Assembly (NCBI GenBank): GCA_023146115.1
Contig: JAGLCS010000006.1
Coordinates: forward strand, 1 to 37,643
Direction: 5' to 3'
Length of the DNA: 37,643 nt
From: Abyssibacter sp.
GTDB taxonomy: Bacteria > Pseudomonadota > Gammaproteobacteria > Nevskiales > OUC007
Positions 2,266 through 12,880 of this stretch are shown here, piece after piece. Made by a program: the position numbers and the translations under genes. The notes below the pieces were generated by a model, which saw nothing but the letters and a program-made list of their open reading frames with translations, did no database searches and was not told the DNA's origin. Numbering within the stretch: the first letter of the stretch is position 1; the number at the start of each line of letters is the position of its first letter.

Positions 2266-3480
2266 CTACTCGCGGTCCTCCAGCAGCCATGCCCGCGGGA
2301 AGTGCCCGCGCATCCTGATGCGGGCCGCGTCGGCCTCGCGCACGCTCGCGAAGGGCCCCACCGCCGCGCGGAAGGACCGACCGCTGTCGCTCTCCGACGT
2401 CGTCATGTGCGACGCGATGGCAAACGGCAGCTTGTTGATGAACTCGGCGCTGCGCTCGCGCTGCGAGAACGCCGCGAGCACGACGTACCAGCTGCCCTCG
2501 TCCGCGATGGCGAGGTCCCCGGCGATATCGGCGAGCCCCACCGGCGGCTTCGGCGCGCGCACCGTGTCGCTGTTGCCGGTGCGCGGCTGCAGCGGCTGGG
2601 CCCTGGGCGTCTCGTCGGCCCAGACCACCGGCGGCGCCTTGCGCTCCGGCTTCCAGTCGCCCGAGCTGGCGGTGTCGCCGGCTTCGGGCTGCGCGGGCTC
2701 GGCCGGTGCCGGCTTCGGGGCGGGCGCCGGGGTTACGCGAGGCCTCCCCCGGACCTCGGACCGCGGCTTCGGCTCGGCTTCGGGCTCCGGTGCCGGCTCT
2801 GGCTCGGGTTCGGGTTCGGGTTCCGGCTCCGGCTCGGCACCGCCGTAGGCCCGATCCGCCAGCGCCGCCATCTCCGGCAGGGTGTCGACCGCCGGGTGCA
2901 CGATGCGTTCGGCGAGCTCGTCGTCGGACAGCGAGAAATGCGCCATGCCGGTATCGCGCAGCACCTCGACACAAGCACCGGGCTTGCGCAGGAACATGTT
3001 GAACCCGCCGAAGAATTCCACCTCGACCGGACCGCCGGCGGAGCACACCCGCTCGCCCTCCCCGGTCTTCGACACCCAGGCCGCGCTGTCCTCGATGCCG
3101 ATCCAGATCTGATCGAGATCGATGCGCACGCGCGTGCCCGGCGGCGTCTGCAGGCTGGCGTGCCCCTCGTCGATCTCCAGACGCGTCTGCCCGGCGTAGG
3201 ACTCGCTCAGCCAGCGGAACTTGGACGGCCCGCGGAAGCTCAGCACTGCATCGTCGCTGCGGAGCGTGAGCACCTCGTCGGTGCGCACCGAGAAGCGGCG
3301 CCCCTTCTCGACGAGATCGCCGATCGGGAACGCGCCCGCTGTCCCCGGCAGGCCCTCCTGCGCAGCCTTGTCGCTGACCGCGGCCACGCGCCACTCGGCC
3401 GCGCCCACCGGCGCCATCATGCCGCACAGAACCAGAGCCGCCGCCGCACGCGCCGCGCGCCGCCATTCGCGGTTTCGCAT
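2266..3480 (-). CDS. Exported FecR-like domain protein with Glu-Pro linker and C-terminal SPOR domain
   Basis: 404 residues. Residues 1-28 form a signal peptide (basic start, hydrophobic core AAAALVLCG, GAA cleavage region). Residues about 55-160 resemble a FecR-type beta domain (VEKGRRFSVRTDEVLTLRSD, then QTPPGTRVRIDLDQIWIGIE). Residues 216-238 are an alternating Glu-Pro tract, followed by a Pro/Ala-rich linker to about 320. Residues 331-403 look like a SPOR peptidoglycan-binding domain (WYVVLAAFSQRERSAEFINK ... FRAAVGPFASVREADAARIR). Start at ATG 3480, with GGGAGGGA on the coding strand about 11 bases upstream; a longer frame from 3522 would bury the signal peptide. Likely periplasmic and peptidoglycan-associated, possibly at the septum. 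The partner and ligand of the FecR-like part are unknown. Confidence 0.8.
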   Translation of the reverse strand: MRNREWRRAARAAAALVLCGMMAPVGAAEWRVAAVSDKAAQEGLPGTAGAFPIGDLVEKGRRFSVRTDEVLTLRSDDAVLSFRGPSKFRWLSESYAGQTRLEIDEGHASLQTPPGTRVRIDLDQIWIGIEDSAAWVSKTGEGERVCSAGGPVEVEFFGGFNMFLRKPGACVEVLRDTGMAHFSLSDDELAERIVHPAVDTLPEMAALADRAYGGAEPEPEPEPEPEPEPAPEPEAEPKPRSEVRGRPRVTPAPAPKPAPAEPAQPEAGDTASSGDWKPERKAPPVVWADETPRAQPLQPRTGNSDTVRAPKPPVGLADIAGDLAIADEGSWYVVLAAFSQRERSAEFINKLPFAIASHMTTSESDSGRSFRAAVGPFASVREADAARIRMRGHFPRAWLLEDRE

Positions 3481-3630
3481 CAAGTCGCAATCCCTCCCGG
3501 AAATGGGTTCGTGGCGGTGCACCGCCGCTGCCAGGCGTTAGCTTACCGTCCTTTGGGCGACGAGCGGCCACGCTGTCTCGGCTCGGCGGCCCCGAAGCGG
3601 TTGCGCGAACGCGCGGTACGCGCTGCTTGC

Positions 3631-3666
3631 CCCCTCATCCTGACCTTCTCCCCGAGGGGAGAAGGG
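3631..3666. repeat. REP-like palindrome (copy 4)
   Basis: CCCCTCATCCTGA head (3631-3643), then arms CCTTCTCCCC (3644-3653) and GGGGAGAAGG (3656-3665). Same family and orientation as copy 3. Confidence 0.65.
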
Positions 3667-3700
3667 ATACCCCGGATCACCGCCGCGGCACCCCGACGAA

Positions 3701-3745
3701 CCCTGGTCCCTTCTCCCGCCTGCGAGAGAGGGCGGAGGGTGAGGG
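3701..3745. repeat. REP-like palindrome (copy 5, imperfect stem)
   Basis: CCCTGGTCCC lead, left arm TTCTCCCGC (3711-3719), right arm GCGAGAGAGGG (3722-3732), tail CGGAGGGTGAGGG (3733-3745). Stem has mismatches. The tail is identical to that of copy 6. Confidence 0.6.
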
Positions 3746-3781
3746 CCAACATGGGGCAACCCCTCCCAGTGGGCCACTCAC

Positions 3782-4003
3782 CTACGCAGCGCGTGTGACC
3801 TTCGCAGCGACTGCATCTGAAAGCGTCACCGGTGAAAAGAATTCCTCGGGGTACAGATAGTCTTCTCCCGATTCATCGATCACGCGGAGGTGCCCCATAT
3901 TCGCGGCCGCCGGATCTTCAACAACCTGGTACAGCTTGCGCGGCTCGAGCGACGCTTCATAGCCCACATTGCTGGTGCAGATTACGAACGTATGGTTTGA
4001 CAT
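3782..4003 (-). CDS. Small conserved protein of unknown function (73 aa), second of a pair
   Basis: 73 residues, acidic in the middle, no signal peptide or membrane segment. Readable blocks: HTFVICTSNVGYEASLEPRK, LYQVVEDPAAANMGHLRVID and ESGEDYLYPEEFFSPVTL. From memory this matches a small family of proteobacterial hypothetical proteins often found next to a second small protein, as here; that match needs a search. Starts at ATG 4003, four bases after the stop of the upstream partner, so the two are almost certainly co-transcribed and perhaps interact. The pair could be a toxin-antitoxin-like module, but no toxin fold was recognised. Confidence 0.75.
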   Translation of the reverse strand: MSNHTFVICTSNVGYEASLEPRKLYQVVEDPAAANMGHLRVIDESGEDYLYPEEFFSPVTLSDAVAAKVTRAA

Positions 4004-4007
4004 GGCG

Positions 4008-4241
4008 CTACTCGATGATTCGCTTGATCTTGAACTCTCGCTTCCCGATGCCTGTCGCCTCGTACCAATGCACCTCGGCCTCGCAGATGGCGCCGTTCTC
4101 CAACTTCACGGTTGCGAAACCTTTTCGCTTACGCCAACGGCCATCGCCATGAGCACGACGGAGGCGTTTCAGCTCGCGGATGCCGGAACCATGTGCAATG
4201 GTCTCAGCCGCCCGCACATTGCCGATGATCTCGAAAAGCAT
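4008..4241 (-). CDS. Small conserved basic protein of unknown function (77 aa), first of a pair
   Basis: 77 residues, strongly basic: ELKRLRRAHGDGRWRKRKGF at 23-42, then FATVKLENGAICEAEVHWYE and a KREFKIKRIIE end. The second half reads like a short beta-rich fold. No helix-turn-helix, RelE, HigB or HicA signature is obvious, though small size, basic charge and a tightly coupled acidic neighbour fit a toxin-antitoxin-like or RNA-binding pair; this is inference only. Start at ATG 4241; no strong ribosome binding site was seen. Confidence 0.72.
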   Translation of the reverse strand: MLFEIIGNVRAAETIAHGSGIRELKRLRRAHGDGRWRKRKGFATVKLENGAICEAEVHWYEATGIGKREFKIKRIIE

Positions 4242-4438
4242 CGTCCTACGCCAGCATTTCCCGTTACCCGCCCGTCATGAAATCGCGTTGTCGCACTGGG
4301 GGGACAGTCTGACCATTTCCTCCGAAGCGCCGACAATAAATAAACTGTCCCCAAACTGCTGGCCAACGACCCTGGTCCCCTCTCCCGCTTGCGGGAGAGG
4401 GCGGAGGGTGAGGGAGAAAACGCCGACGCTCGCGCCCC
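4242..4438. other. Intergenic region with a GGGGACAGT inverted repeat and a REP-like palindrome
   Basis: No gene. GGGGACAGT (4300-4308) is inverted as ACTGTCCCC (4344-4352), enclosing an AT-richer 35 bases. A REP-like element follows at 4371-4414, just past the 3' end of the patatin gene. Confidence 0.6.
4371..4414. repeat. REP-like palindrome (copy 6)
   Basis: Perfect 11-base arms CCCTCTCCCGC (4378-4388) and GCGGGAGAGGG (4391-4401), tail CGGAGGGTGAGGG (4402-4414). Lies 24 bases past the stop of the leftward patatin gene, a typical REP position. Confidence 0.72.
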
Positions 4439-6232
4439 TTACGCCGACGCCCCGCCCTCGGACTCGGCCGCGGCCTCGCGTTCCAGCCACGCGGTGAGCT
4501 CGCGCTCGGCGTGCTCGCGGGAACGGTCGACGACGTTGTCGAACACGTCCCAGTCGAACATGCCGATACCGCTCACGGGCATGCGCAGGTACAGATCGGT
4601 GCGCTCGGCGCGGGCGTTGAGCTCCTCGCGGGTCGAAAGCGTGGCGGTGCGGTAGAGCACGCGGAAGATGTTGACGCCCTCGCCCAGCGCGTTCCCGGCG
4701 CCTTCCTCGCTGGCGGCGCCGAAGCGTTCGTCGGCGGACACGTCCGACGCCACCACCGGGCCGCGATCGAGGTCGGCCAGCACATTGGAGGGCACCGGCG
4801 TCAGCACGCCACCATCCACCAGCACGTCGCCGTTGTAGATGACGGGCGGCGCGACGCCGGGTACCGACATGCTGGCCACCAGCCAGTGCGCCAGCAGGCC
4901 GCGATCGTGGATCTCGGCGCGGGCGCGGGAGAGGTTGGTGGTGGTGCAGGCGAAGTAGCCACGCATTTCCTCGATGCGGGTCTTCCCGAACACCGACTCC
5001 AGGTACTGGCGGGCGCGGCGGGCACGGATCAGGGAGATGCGCGGAAGCGTGAAGTCGTTGAGCAGGTTGCGCGCCACGAACATGTCGTTGAGCACGGTGC
5101 GGGTCTGGGCGGCATCGCGACCGGACGCTGCCAGCGCGCCGACCAGTGCGCCCATGCTGGTGCCGACCACGAGGTCGGCGTGCAGATCGAGCTTCTCCAT
5201 CGCCTGCAGAAGGCCGAGGTGCGCGAATCCGCGGGCGCCGCCCCCGCCCAGCGCGATGCCGAGCGCCCGGCCCGTGAGCAGGCGCACCATGCGGTCGAAG
5301 CCTTCCCGCTCGCCGACGCGCACGCGGTGATGCATGCGCGCCCCCAGCAGCTGACGCCAGGCGAGCGGATCGCTGGCCCCGGAGCCGACGATGACGACTT
5401 CGGGCTCGGCCTTGCCCTTGAGGTCGGTCAGCTGCCGCGTCAGCGGTGAATCGGTGACCGCGAAGCCCGACGAGGCGACCACCACGATGCGATCCGCCTG
5501 GCGCAGGCTGCGCGCGCACCAGGGGTCGTCGGTCCGGCGCGCCATGTAGACCACGAAGCGGTAGTCGCGCTCCAGCGCTTCCAGTATCTCGACGCTCTCG
5601 GGCGCGCTGAGGTCGCGTCCGTCGTCTCGCGGCGTGGCCGGGCCGTCGATGATCTTGCCGTCGACGCGCACGACGCTGCCGCGCGCGGCCAGCGACTTGA
5701 GCAGCGCATCGGCGACCACCTCCACCGGCGCCCCGTCGTGCGCCGGCACCACCGCCAGCGTCCGCGCGCTGCGGCGCTGGTCACCGGTGCGCGGGCGCGG
5801 GGCGTACAGCACGTTGCGCAGCCACTGGCGCACGGCTTCGCGCCCGAAGGTGGGGTGCCGATAGAGCAGCCGCTCGACGGCGGATTCCGGCAGGCGCACG
5901 ACCTCGGAATCGCGCACCGCGCGCAGGGTGGCCCGGTGCGACTTGCCCGCCATCAGCGACAGACCGCCCATGGTCTCGCCGGCGCGCAGCTCGCGAAGGA
6001 CGGTCATCTTGCCGTCGATGCGCTGCTCGGCGCGCATGCGGCCATGCGCGACCAGATAGAGCGCGTCCGACGGCGTGTCCTGCTCGTAGAGGACCTCGCC
6101 GCCGGCGACGCGCTCCAGCGTGCACTCGCGCGCCAGCCGCGCGATGCCGACGCGACCGAGGCTGCCGAATACCGGGGAATCGCGCAGCGCCTGGGCGACG
6201 CGCTCTCCGGTCGAGGACGCGGTGTCCGACAC
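4439..6232 (-). CDS. Patatin-like phospholipase with N-terminal cyclic-nucleotide-binding domain (NTE/RssA-like)
   Basis: 597 residues in two parts. Residues about 15-130 form a cNMP-binding/Crp-type beta barrel (LERVAGGEVLYEQDTPSDAL ... GETMGGLSLMAGKSHRATLR). Residues 325-500 form a patatin serine hydrolase with an oxyanion loop GGGGARG (329-335), nucleophile elbow GTSMG (Ser359) and catalytic DGG (Asp473); the Ser-Asp dyad is intact. The middle (about 155-300) resembles the linker of bacterial neuropathy-target-esterase homologues. Predicted lysophospholipase or phospholipase A acting at the inner membrane, perhaps gated by nucleotide; no membrane helix is evident. Start is GTG 6232, the first possible start after an in-frame stop at 6245-6247, with a weak ribosome binding site. 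It lies 32 bases downstream of fba, so read-through from fba is likely. Confidence 0.88.
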   Translation of the reverse strand: MSDTASSTGERVAQALRDSPVFGSLGRVGIARLARECTLERVAGGEVLYEQDTPSDALYLVAHGRMRAEQRIDGKMTVLRELRAGETMGGLSLMAGKSHRATLRAVRDSEVVRLPESAVERLLYRHPTFGREAVRQWLRNVLYAPRPRTGDQRRSARTLAVVPAHDGAPVEVVADALLKSLAARGSVVRVDGKIIDGPATPRDDGRDLSAPESVEILEALERDYRFVVYMARRTDDPWCARSLRQADRIVVVASSGFAVTDSPLTRQLTDLKGKAEPEVVIVGSGASDPLAWRQLLGARMHHRVRVGEREGFDRMVRLLTGRALGIALGGGGARGFAHLGLLQAMEKLDLHADLVVGTSMGALVGALAASGRDAAQTRTVLNDMFVARNLLNDFTLPRISLIRARRARQYLESVFGKTRIEEMRGYFACTTTNLSRARAEIHDRGLLAHWLVASMSVPGVAPPVIYNGDVLVDGGVLTPVPSNVLADLDRGPVVASDVSADERFGAASEEGAGNALGEGVNIFRVLYRTATLSTREELNARAERTDLYLRMPVSGIGMFDWDVFDNVVDRSREHAERELTAWLEREAAAESEGGASA

Positions 6233-8685: not shown

Positions 8686-10122
8686 ATGCCAACACTCGTT
8701 CCCGTCCTGCTCGCCGGCGGCACCGGCACGCGCCTCTGGCCCCTCTCCCGCCAGGGCTACCCCAAGCAATTCCACAAGCTCCTGGGTGACGACTCCCTGC
8801 TGCAGGCCACGGCCCGGCGCGCGGCCCGCGTCCCGAAAGCGGCACCGCCCATGGTCATCTGCGGCGACCAGCACCGCTTCATCGTCGCCGAGCAGCTGCG
8901 CGAGATCGGCATCCGCGACGCCACCATCATCCTGGAGCCCGAAGGCCGCAATACTGCGCCGGCGGCAACGATAGCCGCCCTGCAGGTGGCCGAACAGCAC
9001 GCCCCGGACGCCCAGGTCTTCCTGATGAGCGCCGACCACGCCGTCGCCAACGTGGAGGCCTTCTGCGCGGCCGCCGCCACTGCGTCGGCGGTCGCGCAGG
9101 ACGGCCGCATCGTCACCTTCGGCATTGCCCCCACCCGCCCGGAAACCGGCTACGGCTACCTGAAGCGCGGCGCCGAGCTGCCCGCGGGTGGCTTCGAGGT
9201 CGCCCAATTCATCGAGAAGCCCAAACTGCCGGATGCCCAGCGCTACTACCAGGACGAGGCCTTCTCCTGGAACGGCGGCCTGTTCCTCTATCCGGCCGGC
9301 GCCTTCCTCAAGGAAGTCGAGCAGTTCGAGCCGGACATGCTCGCGCACTGCCGGCAGGCCCTGACCGCCGCCCGGAAGGACCTGGACTTCATCCGCCTGG
9401 ACGCGGATGCGTTCAAGGGCGCGCGCTCGGAATCCATCGACTACGCCATCATGGAGAAGACGAAGATCGCGGCGCTCGTTCCCATGGACGCCGGCTGGGA
9501 CGACGTCGGCGCCTGGACCTTCATGAACCTACTGCCCACCGACGAGAACGGCAACGTCACCGAGGGCGACGTGCTGCTCGAGGACAGCCGCAACAACCTG
9601 GTCTACGCCGACACCCGCCTGGTGGCAGCGGTCGGCATGGAAAACCACATCGTGGTCGAGACCAAGGACGCCGTGCTGGTCGCCCCCACCGACCGCGCGC
9701 AGGACGTCAAGCGCCTGGTCACCACGCTGGAGGCCATGCAGCGGCCGGAAACGCAGCTTCACCCGCGCGTGCTGCGCCCCTGGGGCAGCTACGAGACCAT
9801 CGCCGAAGGCCCCCGTTTCCAGGTCAAGCGCATCATCGTCAAGCCCGGCGAGAAGCTCAGCCTGCAGATGCACCACCACCGCGCAGAGCACTGGATCGTG
9901 GTCTGCGGCACCGCCCGCGTGACCCGCGACACCGAGGAAACCCTCGTCACCGAGAACCAGAGCGTCTACATCCCGCTGGGCACCCGCCACCGCCTCGACA
10001 ACCCCGGCCACGTGCCGCTGGAGCTCATCGAGGTGCAGTCGGGCAGCTATCTGGGCGAGGACGACATCGTGCGTTTCGACGATGTGTACGGGCGGACGCC
10101 TGAATCCACTCAAGCTCAATAG
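8686..10122 (+). CDS. manC: Mannose-1-phosphate guanylyltransferase / mannose-6-phosphate isomerase (ManC/AlgA type)
   Basis: Bifunctional enzyme of GDP-mannose synthesis. 478 residues, as usual for type II phosphomannose isomerases. The N-terminal nucleotidyltransferase part carries the signature LAGGTGTRLWPLSRQGYPKQ (9-28) and FIEKPKLPDA with the active-site lysine; the C-terminal cupin part has KPGEKLSLQMHHHRAEHW and a VYIPLGTRHR segment, the zinc-binding isomerase site. It supplies GDP-mannose to Gmd and Fcl, encoded further right on the other strand. The adjacent glycosyltransferase follows at once. No clear ribosome binding site precedes ATG 8686, but the protein begins exactly as the family does. 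Confidence 0.96.
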   Translation: MPTLVPVLLAGGTGTRLWPLSRQGYPKQFHKLLGDDSLLQATARRAARVPKAAPPMVICGDQHRFIVAEQLREIGIRDATIILEPEGRNTAPAATIAALQVAEQHAPDAQVFLMSADHAVANVEAFCAAAATASAVAQDGRIVTFGIAPTRPETGYGYLKRGAELPAGGFEVAQFIEKPKLPDAQRYYQDEAFSWNGGLFLYPAGAFLKEVEQFEPDMLAHCRQALTAARKDLDFIRLDADAFKGARSESIDYAIMEKTKIAALVPMDAGWDDVGAWTFMNLLPTDENGNVTEGDVLLEDSRNNLVYADTRLVAAVGMENHIVVETKDAVLVAPTDRAQDVKRLVTTLEAMQRPETQLHPRVLRPWGSYETIAEGPRFQVKRIIVKPGEKLSLQMHHHRAEHWIVVCGTARVTRDTEETLVTENQSVYIPLGTRHRLDNPGHVPLELIEVQSGSYLGEDDIVRFDDVYGRTPESTQAQ

Positions 10123-10135
10123 GAACGCTCGCAAA

Positions 10136-11419
10136 GTGCCGGAATCGCGTTCTCTCCGCATCCTTTTTGTCAGCCTCAACTTCTCGCCGGAAGAAACCGC
10201 GACTGGCAAGTACACCGGAGAGTTGGCGCAGTGGCTCGCGGCACGCGGACACGCGGTCGATGCGATTGCAGGCCTACCCCATTATCCCGAATGGCGGGTC
10301 CAGCCCGGCTACGCGGGGAAAGGCCTCTGGAAGGAATCACTCGATGGCGTGACCGTCCTCAGGACACCGCATCCCGTGCCCGCCAGTGGAAGCGTCTCCG
10401 CAAAGAAGCGCATCCTCATGGAGCTCGGATTCTCCTTTGCATCGCTGTACTGGTGGTCGCGCATCGTCTTTTCCCGCCGGCGCTACAACCTGGTTATCGC
10501 GATCTGCCCGCCGTTGCAGACAGCCGTGATGCCGGCCATTTATGGCGCGCTTCGCGGAGTGCCCTGGGTTCTGCACGTTCAGGACTTCCAGGTCGACGCA
10601 GCACTGCGCCTCGGAATGCTGAAGATGGGCAAGCTCGATCGCTTGCTCTTTGGTCTGGAGAACCTGTTTCTCAGGCGTGCGACCCGGGTTTCATCGATCA
10701 CACCTTCCATGTGCCGGCGAGCCGCGGAGAAGGGCGCCAGCGTTGACCGCACTTGGCTAACCCCCAACTGGGCCGACATCACGCAGATCACCCCCGGGGA
10801 CCACGACAACGGCTTCCGCAGGGAGCTTGGTGTGGGTAACGACGGCATCCTCGTGATGTACGCCGGCGCCATTGCCACCAAGCAAGGGCTCGATGTCCTG
10901 CTCGAAGCAGCCCATGCCATGAAAGATGACGACAGGTTCCACTTCGTGATCGTGGGCAACGGCTCCGACCGCGAACGGTTGGAATCACGGGCTGCGGAAC
11001 TGGGCCTACCGCGGCTCCGCTTTCTGGATCTGCAACCGCGCGCCCGCTTGAACGAAATGCTGGGAGCAGCCGATATCCATCTCGTCATCCAGAAACGCGA
11101 AGCGGCGGATCTGGTCATGCCCTCGAAGCTGACCAATATTCTAGCGGCCGGCCGCCCGGCCATCGCCACGGCAGATCAGGGCACAGCCCTGTGGGACGCC
11201 CTTGAAGACGGCGGCTGCGGCGTTTGCGTGCCTCCCGGAGACAGCGCCGCACTCGCCGAAGCACTAAGCAAACTGGGGAACGATGCTGACACGCGCGATG
11301 CGAAGGGCCTGAAGGCCCGACGATATGCAGAGGAAAACCTGGACCAGGACGCAATCCTGCATGCCTTCGAGCAGAAGCTCTTCACGTTGGTAGGCCCGAA
11401 ATCGAACACAAATGCCTGA
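10136..11419 (+). CDS. GT4-type glycosyltransferase, WcaI-like
   Basis: 427 residues with a GT-B fold pattern. The N-terminus (LRILFVSLNFSPEETATGKY, then LAARGHAVDAIAGLPHYPEW) is characteristic of the WcaI family of colanic-acid glycosyltransferases. The C-terminal half has a donor-site region (VMYAGAIATKQGLDVLLEAA ... VMPSKLTNILAAGRPAIATA) and ends RRYAEENLDQDAI...LVG. Expected to add a sugar, possibly from GDP-fucose or GDP-mannose, on the cytoplasmic face of the membrane. Start chosen at GTG 10136, with AGGAAC at 10121-10126; a longer frame from ATG 10082 would overlap manC by 41 bases. Donor and acceptor are not readable. Confidence 0.85.
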   Translation: MPESRSLRILFVSLNFSPEETATGKYTGELAQWLAARGHAVDAIAGLPHYPEWRVQPGYAGKGLWKESLDGVTVLRTPHPVPASGSVSAKKRILMELGFSFASLYWWSRIVFSRRRYNLVIAICPPLQTAVMPAIYGALRGVPWVLHVQDFQVDAALRLGMLKMGKLDRLLFGLENLFLRRATRVSSITPSMCRRAAEKGASVDRTWLTPNWADITQITPGDHDNGFRRELGVGNDGILVMYAGAIATKQGLDVLLEAAHAMKDDDRFHFVIVGNGSDRERLESRAAELGLPRLRFLDLQPRARLNEMLGAADIHLVIQKREAADLVMPSKLTNILAAGRPAIATADQGTALWDALEDGGCGVCVPPGDSAALAEALSKLGNDADTRDAKGLKARRYAEENLDQDAILHAFEQKLFTLVGPKSNTNA

Positions 11420-11518
11420 TCCACGTCCTTGGCCGCAAATCAAGCCGGGTCACCATCAGGCAACTCTTACGTTCGCAGACCGCTCACTAATCGGCACCCA
11501 GCGTCACATGCATGGGGA
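11420..11518. other. Convergent intergenic gap with direct-repeat copy
   Basis: Contains only the left direct repeat (11437-11455). No terminator hairpin with a T-run was seen between the two converging genes. Confidence 0.45.
11437..11455. repeat. Direct repeat, left copy, flanking the HEPN/MNT module
   Basis: AAATCAAGCCGGGTCACCA, identical over 19 bases to 12383-12401. The match extends to 27 of 30 bases (11432-11461 against 12378-12407). It copies the last codons and stop of gmm. Confidence 0.85.
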
Positions 11519-12022
11519 TCAAAGCTGATCCCCCCAATCGACGCGATTGAGGACATACTCGCGGACGCGTCCATAGTCCGCCTGCATCTGCTTACTGAAG
11601 TGACAAGCGCGCTTCAGTACCAACGCCAGATCGGCCGCGTCCTTGATGTACTCATGTACGAGGCGGTTCCGGATCCGCCGCATTGCAAGCCAATCATCAG
11701 CGGCGTCGACGAGCCCGAGGCGCTCCAACCGATCGAGATTATCGGCCGCTGCAGCCGGTAGCTCCCCCACGAGCCGAAGCACCACCGGTGCGAGCTTGTC
11801 CATTACCGTGTCCTGCATACGGCTGAATTTCGCTCCAAACGACTCCAGGCGATCAATTCCCAGATCATCGGACAACAACGACTTGGCGCGCGCCTCATCA
11901 ACCTCGCAGTGGTCGCCGAGCAACCGACTCCGCACACCCGAGAGCTGCGTTGCTTCCCGATCCACGAGATCGACGAGATACCGTATCCGGCGGGACGGCT
12001 CTTCAATCAACCCCTCGCTCAC
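11519..12022 (-). CDS. hepT: HEPN-domain toxin (HepT-like)
   Basis: 167 residues, all helical in appearance. The HEPN catalytic motif RX4H is present as RNRLVHEY (Arg118, His123), with Tyr125 fitting the RX4HXY form of HepT, whose tyrosine is modified by the partner nucleotidyltransferase in characterised pairs. Predicted metal-independent RNase or tRNA-targeting toxin of a type VII system. Start is GTG 12022, sharing GTGA with the antitoxin stop, so translation is coupled. Flanked with its partner by a direct repeat, which suggests the two genes arrived as a unit. Confidence 0.88.
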   Translation of the reverse strand: MSEGLIEEPSRRIRYLVDLVDREATQLSGVRSRLLGDHCEVDEARAKSLLSDDLGIDRLESFGAKFSRMQDTVMDKLAPVVLRLVGELPAAAADNLDRLERLGLVDAADDWLAMRRIRNRLVHEYIKDAADLALVLKRACHFSKQMQADYGRVREYVLNRVDWGDQL

Positions 12023-12318
12023 AACACCACGCCCTGTTCGTGTGCTTGCTCATCGATCGAACGCGGGTTGGCACCCTTACGGTGCACAACGACGTCAATC
12101 CGCCTGTCGCCCAATCGGCGCTGCAACCGTGCGTTCAGCTCAAGCTCCTTGTCGAATACAACCTCGGGCGTCCCGAATGCCTCGATGTGCAAATCGATAT
12201 CCCCGCCCCGCAGCGTGTCATCAACCCGTGAACCGAACAGGCGCACGGTCGCCTCGGGGCCGAAGATGCTGCGGACCTCGTCGACAATAGCGCGGTGTTG
12301 TTCAGCGGTAAGGCGCAT
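12019..12318 (-). CDS. mntA: MNT-domain nucleotidyltransferase antitoxin (MntA-like)
   Basis: 99 residues. The minimal nucleotidyltransferase signature is visible: LFGSRVDDTLRGGDIDLHIE, that is GS (29-30) followed by DID (Asp40, Asp42), nine residues between rather than the commonly cited ten; a third acidic site is in RIDVVVH. Characterised MntA antitoxins neutralise HepT by adding AMP to its HEPN tyrosine. ATG 12318 is the clear start; no strong ribosome binding site was seen. The gene precedes and overlaps hepT by four bases. Confidence 0.88.
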   Translation of the reverse strand: MRLTAEQHRAIVDEVRSIFGPEATVRLFGSRVDDTLRGGDIDLHIEAFGTPEVVFDKELELNARLQRRLGDRRIDVVVHRKGANPRSIDEQAHEQGVVL

Positions 12319-12382
12319 ATCGTGATCGTACTACGACAACTCCCTGCCAATCTTCACTCGCCGTGCCTGCCGAGTGAGCCGG

Positions 12383-12401
12383 AAATCAAGCCGGGTCACC
12401 A
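12383..12401. repeat. Direct repeat, right copy, at the 3' end of gmm
   Basis: Identical 19 bases to 11437-11455; spans the last codons and the stop of the Nudix gene (stop at 12386-12388). The two copies are 946 bases apart and bracket hepT/mntA exactly. Confidence 0.85.
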
Positions 12402-12880
12402 CCACGCAGCGCGCTGAAATAGGCGCGTGCGTTCGGATGCACCGGACAACTGCCGTGCTCCCCAGCTGACTCGTCAATCGGCGCCCACCACTGCGCGTCG
12501 TGCGAGTCCGGCTTCAGCATCACATCCGAAGCCGGCGTCACCCGGTACGCCAGCACCACGTAGTGCGTTGCAGTGGCCGAGCCGTCAAAGCAGCGCTCAT
12601 AAAAGTGCTCGTACGCCCCGACCAGCCGGGGCGCCTCGCCAGCCAACTCCCCCACGATCTCCGCCCGCCAGATGCGCTGCAGCGCATCGGCAATCCGCTC
12701 CCCACGCCGAATACGCCCGCCCGGCACGAACCAGGTGCCCTGGGCCGGCTCATCGCGTCGCAGGCCCAGTAGAAGATGGCCGTCGCGCACCACGAGCAGA
12801 TCCACCGAAACCAGCGGTACCGACGCAATCGCGTGCCGGAAGTCGGCTTCGCTCAGATACCCGTCAATGCCCTCGCTCAA
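12386..12880 (-). CDS. gmm: GDP-mannose mannosyl hydrolase (Nudix, Gmm/WcaH type)
   Basis: 164 residues. Hydrolyses GDP-mannose or GDP-glucose to GDP and the free sugar; thought to balance GDP-sugar pools beside gmd and fcl. The start resembles E. coli Gmm (LSEADFRHAIASVPLVSVDL) and the Nudix region is the Gmm variant, GGRIRRGERIADALQRIWRA, lacking one of the standard glutamates, which marks this subgroup. WFVPGG precedes it and a THYVVLAYR strand follows. Start appears to be TTG 12880, as an in-frame stop lies shortly upstream and no ATG/GTG fits; this rare start is the least certain point. Lies 31 bases downstream of fcl. Confidence 0.88.
   Translation of the reverse strand: MSEGIDGYLSEADFRHAIASVPLVSVDLLVVRDGHLLLGLRRDEPAQGTWFVPGGRIRRGERIADALQRIWRAEIVGELAGEAPRLVGAYEHFYERCFDGSATATHYVVLAYRVTPASDVMLKPDSHDAQWWAPIDESAGEHGSCPVHPNARAYFSALRGGDPA

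Follow-up and report, generated by a model that had tools for sequence, protein, structure and literature searches.

A toxin-antitoxin pair between gmm and wcaI

The locus lies in the window analyzed here (the whole stretch of 37,643 nucleotides of Abyssibacter sp. DNA) and is a bacterial polysaccharide gene cluster. On the reverse strand, gmm (12386 to 12880) codes for a GDP-mannose mannosyl hydrolase-like NUDIX protein and ends inside the right copy of a direct repeat. On the same strand lie an mntA-like gene (12019 to 12318) for a 99-residue minimal nucleotidyltransferase antitoxin with the motif GSX9DXD, and a hepT-like gene (11519 to 12022), whose start it overlaps by 4 nt, for a HEPN RNase toxin of 167 residues in which the RX4HXY motif reads RNRLVHEY (R118 to Y125). 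A wcaI-like glycosyltransferase gene (10082 to 11419, forward strand; NCBIfam NF007640, 417.7 bits) converges with hepT. An earlier note on this DNA had described a 946-base unit that holds only the toxin-antitoxin pair and encodes no recombinase, and both statements hold: mntA and hepT are the sole genes between the repeat copies, with the antitoxin gene upstream of the toxin gene, and Pfam scans of 34 window proteins (the main open reading frames of at least 200 residues plus the mntA-hepT locus) gave no integrase or transposase match. The genome also has a second gmm-like gene, 51% identical, on another contig (G000:C50:4229-4681; L059).

Residues R118, N119, H123, E124, and Y125 of HepT are invariant among 23 sequences, and the MntA motif (G29 S30 ... 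D40 I41 D42) is invariant among five. Both MNT Pfam models score over their cut-offs with MntA (PF01909, 22.9 bits; PF18765, 27.2 bits), and HepT lies slightly under that of PF01934 (21.6 versus 23.5 bits). The AlphaFold model of HepT has a pLDDT of 92.7, and its 12 best PDB structure matches, 8xdj, 8yuf, 7ae6, and 5yep among them, are HEPN toxins, with a probability of 1.00, TM-scores of 0.65 to 0.79 on the target, and E-values of only 0.002 to 0.02. A PDB sequence search with the toxin gave no match, and PADLOC reported a weak PDC-S09 match for the MNT protein only; a PDB sequence match of the antitoxin to a de novo protein was dismissed as spurious. With its intact RX4HXY motif and a predicted toxin fold like that of solved HEPN toxins, the pair is a predicted HEPN/MNT (HepT/MntA-like) module, and these features sustain the original assignment to this type.

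The arrangement is like that of SO_3166/SO_3165 of Shewanella oneidensis (HepT/MntA, type VII; PMC7641770) in that the antitoxin gene comes first and overlaps the toxin gene, and in the RX4HXY motif of the toxin. By contrast, HepT here has 167 residues, versus about 130 in most solved chains, to which it is about 15% identical, and the pair scores 21.9 and 23 bits with NCBIfam models that have a 60-bit cut-off. The Class I antitoxin motif is by definition GSX10DXD (PMC7641770); because GSX9DXD is one residue short of it, we do not claim strict Class I membership and call the pair HepT/MntA-like. As in other HEPN/MNT pairs, MntA would be expected to silence the HepT RNase by adenylylating the tyrosine of RX4HXY.

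A direct repeat of the gmm end brackets the pair

The repeat has a 19-nt perfect core, AAATCAAGCCGGGTCACCA, present exactly at 11437 to 11455 and 12383 to 12401 as first reported, and it widens to a direct repeat (11432 to 11462 and 12378 to 12408) that is identical at 28 of 31 positions, with starts 946 nt apart. The right copy was said to be the end and stop of gmm, and it does hold the last gmm codons and the stop (12386 to 12388); the left, distal copy falls within the 99 nt that separate wcaI from hepT at their convergent 3′ ends. Shuffles of the window put the chance expectation at 0, and the repeat score of 22 compares with a maximum of 15 among 2000 flank shuffles and 2933 random pairs of window stretches. 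There is no third copy with two or fewer mismatches in the 3.39-Mb genome, where the sole further match has three mismatches and falls within an unrelated gene, and we found no terminal inverted repeats on the unit. The repeat is probably a trace of how the pair arrived. A terminator or hairpin role was considered and rejected: a terminator-like hairpin overlaps the left copy, such matches are no commoner than in shuffled sequence, and the folding energies of the region are unremarkable.

The same arrangement in a second family

Among the 85 genomes of the order that were compared, only G044, which belongs to another family than the window genome, carries gmm and wcaI at close identity. It has gmm, mntA, hepT, and wcaI in the same order and repeat copies at the same position with the same 946-nt spacing. 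A three-segment maximum-likelihood fit delimits a block at 11293 to 12451 that is about 95% identical between the two genomes, and identity outside it is 83% in wcaI up to 11293 and 76% in the remaining gmm. The block overshoots the left repeat by 139 nt and the right repeat by 43 nt, and the three-zone fit is better by 15.8 log-likelihood units than one in which the block ends at the repeats. Over the last ~45 wcaI codons and the last ~17 gmm codons, synonymous changes become much rarer; at the protein level, MntA is identical and Gmm 75% identical. Because the borders of the block lie beyond both repeats, inside wcaI and gmm, the last transfer would have been a homologous exchange of flanks, not an excision at the repeats. 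The block borders thus make it less likely that the unit moved most recently ended at the repeats, although the first arrival of the pair is a separate matter.

Within the shared block, divergence peaks at the repeats, with 10 of 63 positions changed versus 52 of 1099 elsewhere (p = 0.001). Between the two window copies, 3 of 31 positions differ; between a window copy and its G044 counterpart, 5 differ in either case. At one position, both window copies have T and both G044 copies have C. That base, concerted between copies, hints at homogenization within one lineage rather than a single old scar, with the proviso that the numbers are small. The G044 copies have diverged to a score of 11, which is not above chance, such that the repeat would go unnoticed from G044 alone. 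As a separate observation, the stretch between gmm and fcl in G044 (L005, about 715 to 1305) holds an open reading frame similar to HicB-type antitoxins that may have a HicA-like partner; the window has no HicB-like open reading frame there, and the cluster may have gained a second toxin-antitoxin pair in G044.

None of the 85 genomes has a gmm-wcaI junction lacking the pair, so that insertion at this locus is something we infer. If the unit and one repeat copy are removed from the sequence, the gmm and wcaI stops come to lie about 20 nt apart, which would be a plausible compact convergent pair. Searches with gmm found no close relative in the class, and a protein search of a collection of genome contigs found no relative at all. 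The module DNA, compared with 369 genomes of the class, gave only weak partial matches within the pair outside the window itself.

Relatives of the pair and the repeats that flank them

Of 146 genomes around the window, 19 carry a relative of the toxin, as do 21 named contigs, among them contigs of Salinisphaera, Thioalkalivibrio, and Acidithiobacillus, and the relatives of the pair sit in differing, unrelated neighborhoods, as an accessory two-gene pair. In the Salinisphaera family, 2 of 14 genomes have the pair between two conserved neighbors that adjoin in relatives, cysC and a putative lipoprotein gene, and in the other members examined it is absent from this gap; the gap measures 125 to 216 nt in the four relatives without the pair that were read. 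This comparison of occupied and unoccupied gaps shows what appears to be insertion of the pair between the two genes. It also gives the proposal of a minimal-islet insertion at gmm a partial footing, indirectly and at the level of the toxin-antitoxin subfamily; the part of that proposal that did not stand is integration as at an attachment site (see below).

Two further loci deserve description in their own right. A Salinisphaera polysaccharide locus with wcaI, gmd, and fcl homologues (L136 in G027, about 9169 to 10080) carries a relative of the pair with direct repeats of 131 nt on either side; this is a second case, independent of the first, of such a module in an exopolysaccharide cluster. 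In Acidithiobacillus (L096 and L097, about 2860 to 5290), two to three MNT/HEPN-like pairs lie adjacent with near-identical starts, which suggests tandem duplication of the module.

We surveyed repeats in 250 nt on each side of the subfamily units at a score of at least 14, with gene units of similar size on the same contigs as controls. Direct repeats bracket 8 of 35 units versus 3 of 136 controls (Fisher p = 1.6e-4), an excess that is exploratory because the score threshold was chosen after a first look; with the window locus left out and orthologous Salinisphaera loci counted once, the count is 6 of 33 (p = 0.002). Inverted repeats show no excess (1 of 35 units, 1 of 136 controls). The bracketing repeats are locus-specific and often REP-like, a term that stands for our own reading of palindromes with a GTAG foot and not for a database assignment. 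At L080, L151, and L152, the pair has REP-like palindromes on either side, oriented alike; elsewhere the bracketing sequence is the 131-nt repeat described above (G027), a 34-mer that is dispersed and present 12 times in the genome (L085), a 21-mer inside a dispersed-looking repeat (G062), or a 20-mer with just two full copies in the genome (G077). Of eight genomes tested for Y1_Tnp proteins, four encode them; the window genome (G000), G044, G062, and G452 do not.

Discussion

We give about an even chance to the following account of the locus, which is that of a toxin-antitoxin islet with a recombination scar at short homology that later spread as a block through its flanks. In an ancestor of the locus or in its donor, a HepT/MntA-like islet would have inserted into the short space that separated the convergent genes gmm and wcaI, and the second copy of the gmm end would be the scar of that entry, with the left copy as the older gmm end. 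The scar would most likely have come from short-homology recombination that duplicated the gmm end, not from a dedicated integrase. Afterward, homologous recombination in wcaI and gmm may have carried the islet as a block from one genome to another. In favor of this account are the uniqueness of the repeat in the genome, the matching arrangement and the wide high-identity block in G044, the negative searches for a recombinase in the window and for phage, plasmid, or viral matches, the occupied and unoccupied gaps in Salinisphaera, and the excess of direct repeats around the subfamily units. What counts against it is that no empty gmm-wcaI site turned up in the 85 genomes, that divergence within the block is highest at the repeats, that the G044 copies are at chance level, and that the T/C base appears concerted.

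Site-specific integration, in which the pair is the cargo or relic of an element whose integrase was lost or acts in trans, the gmm 3′ end is the site, and the copies are attL and attR, would account for a repeat that, like those of many integrase sites, overlaps and restores a gene end with identity over 19 to 31 nt, and it has in common with integrase-type genomic islands at gene 3′ ends both the direct repeat of the gene end and the gene left intact. Unlike those islands, the locus has no recombinase among the 34 window proteins scanned, copies that have diverged in the other carrier, and a shared block wider than the repeats. Moreover, the repeat pattern is absent from 2.9 million viral contigs, in which the HEPN and MNT alignments also found no match, and neither the module DNA in phage and plasmid records nor the toxin protein in plasmids found one. 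We regard such integration as unlikely, and the attachment-site mechanism put forward in the earlier note is not borne out: the block overshoots the repeats, the G044 copies have diverged, and the viral, phage, and plasmid searches were negative. A mobile cassette is a possible reading, with neither a recombinase nor an empty site behind it. Mobilization of the REP/RAYT type, with the bracketing repeats as ends recognized in trans by a Y1 transposase, draws on the direct REP-like palindromic repeats around the pair in Salinisphaera and in one Pseudomonadales genome and on the Y1_Tnp proteins of half the genomes tested; here the repeat occurs just twice, and not both copies are palindromic, and given that both carriers of the locus, like G062 and G452, have no Y1_Tnp, we consider it very improbable.

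The repeat could also be a later or functional feature rather than an insertion scar, either homogenized by gene conversion or serving as a 3′-end or terminator element behind gmm and hepT. Each copy does lie directly behind a gene end, the concerted base and the greater closeness of the window copies to each other than to their G044 counterparts would fit gene conversion, and the hairpin over the left copy would fit a terminator. On the other side are the shuffle counts and folding energies given above, the finding that the sequence is not dispersed behind other genes, and the lower conservation of the repeats than of their surroundings, and we think this explanation unlikely, if slightly less so than site-specific integration.

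The locus fits a known class of chromosomal toxin-antitoxin islets; how these enter genomes is acknowledged to be unsolved (PMC7167474). One example from the same review is the ccd pair of E. coli O157:H7, which sits between folA and apaH and is likewise a two-gene pair inserted between neighbors, with no obvious mobile element and a patchy distribution; the review also mentions REP sequences at the folA-apaH gap. In contrast to that islet, the locus described here has a private repeat that copies the end of a neighboring gene. The gmm-wcaI locus gives one case in which transfer by flank homology is readable from sequence. We also raise, as a tentative idea that we do not favor, that the HEPN/MNT subfamily has a repeat-dependent way into genomes that does not involve a recombinase of its own, with the repeats as the locus-specific footprint of a general integration of toxin-antitoxin pairs. 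If true, the pair would travel between two direct copies of a local or dispersed sequence, and this would be a general entry mechanism of chromosomal toxin-antitoxin pairs. The excess of direct repeats (8 of 35 versus 3 of 136) is testable, could expose the route by which such pairs enter, and is the part worth following.
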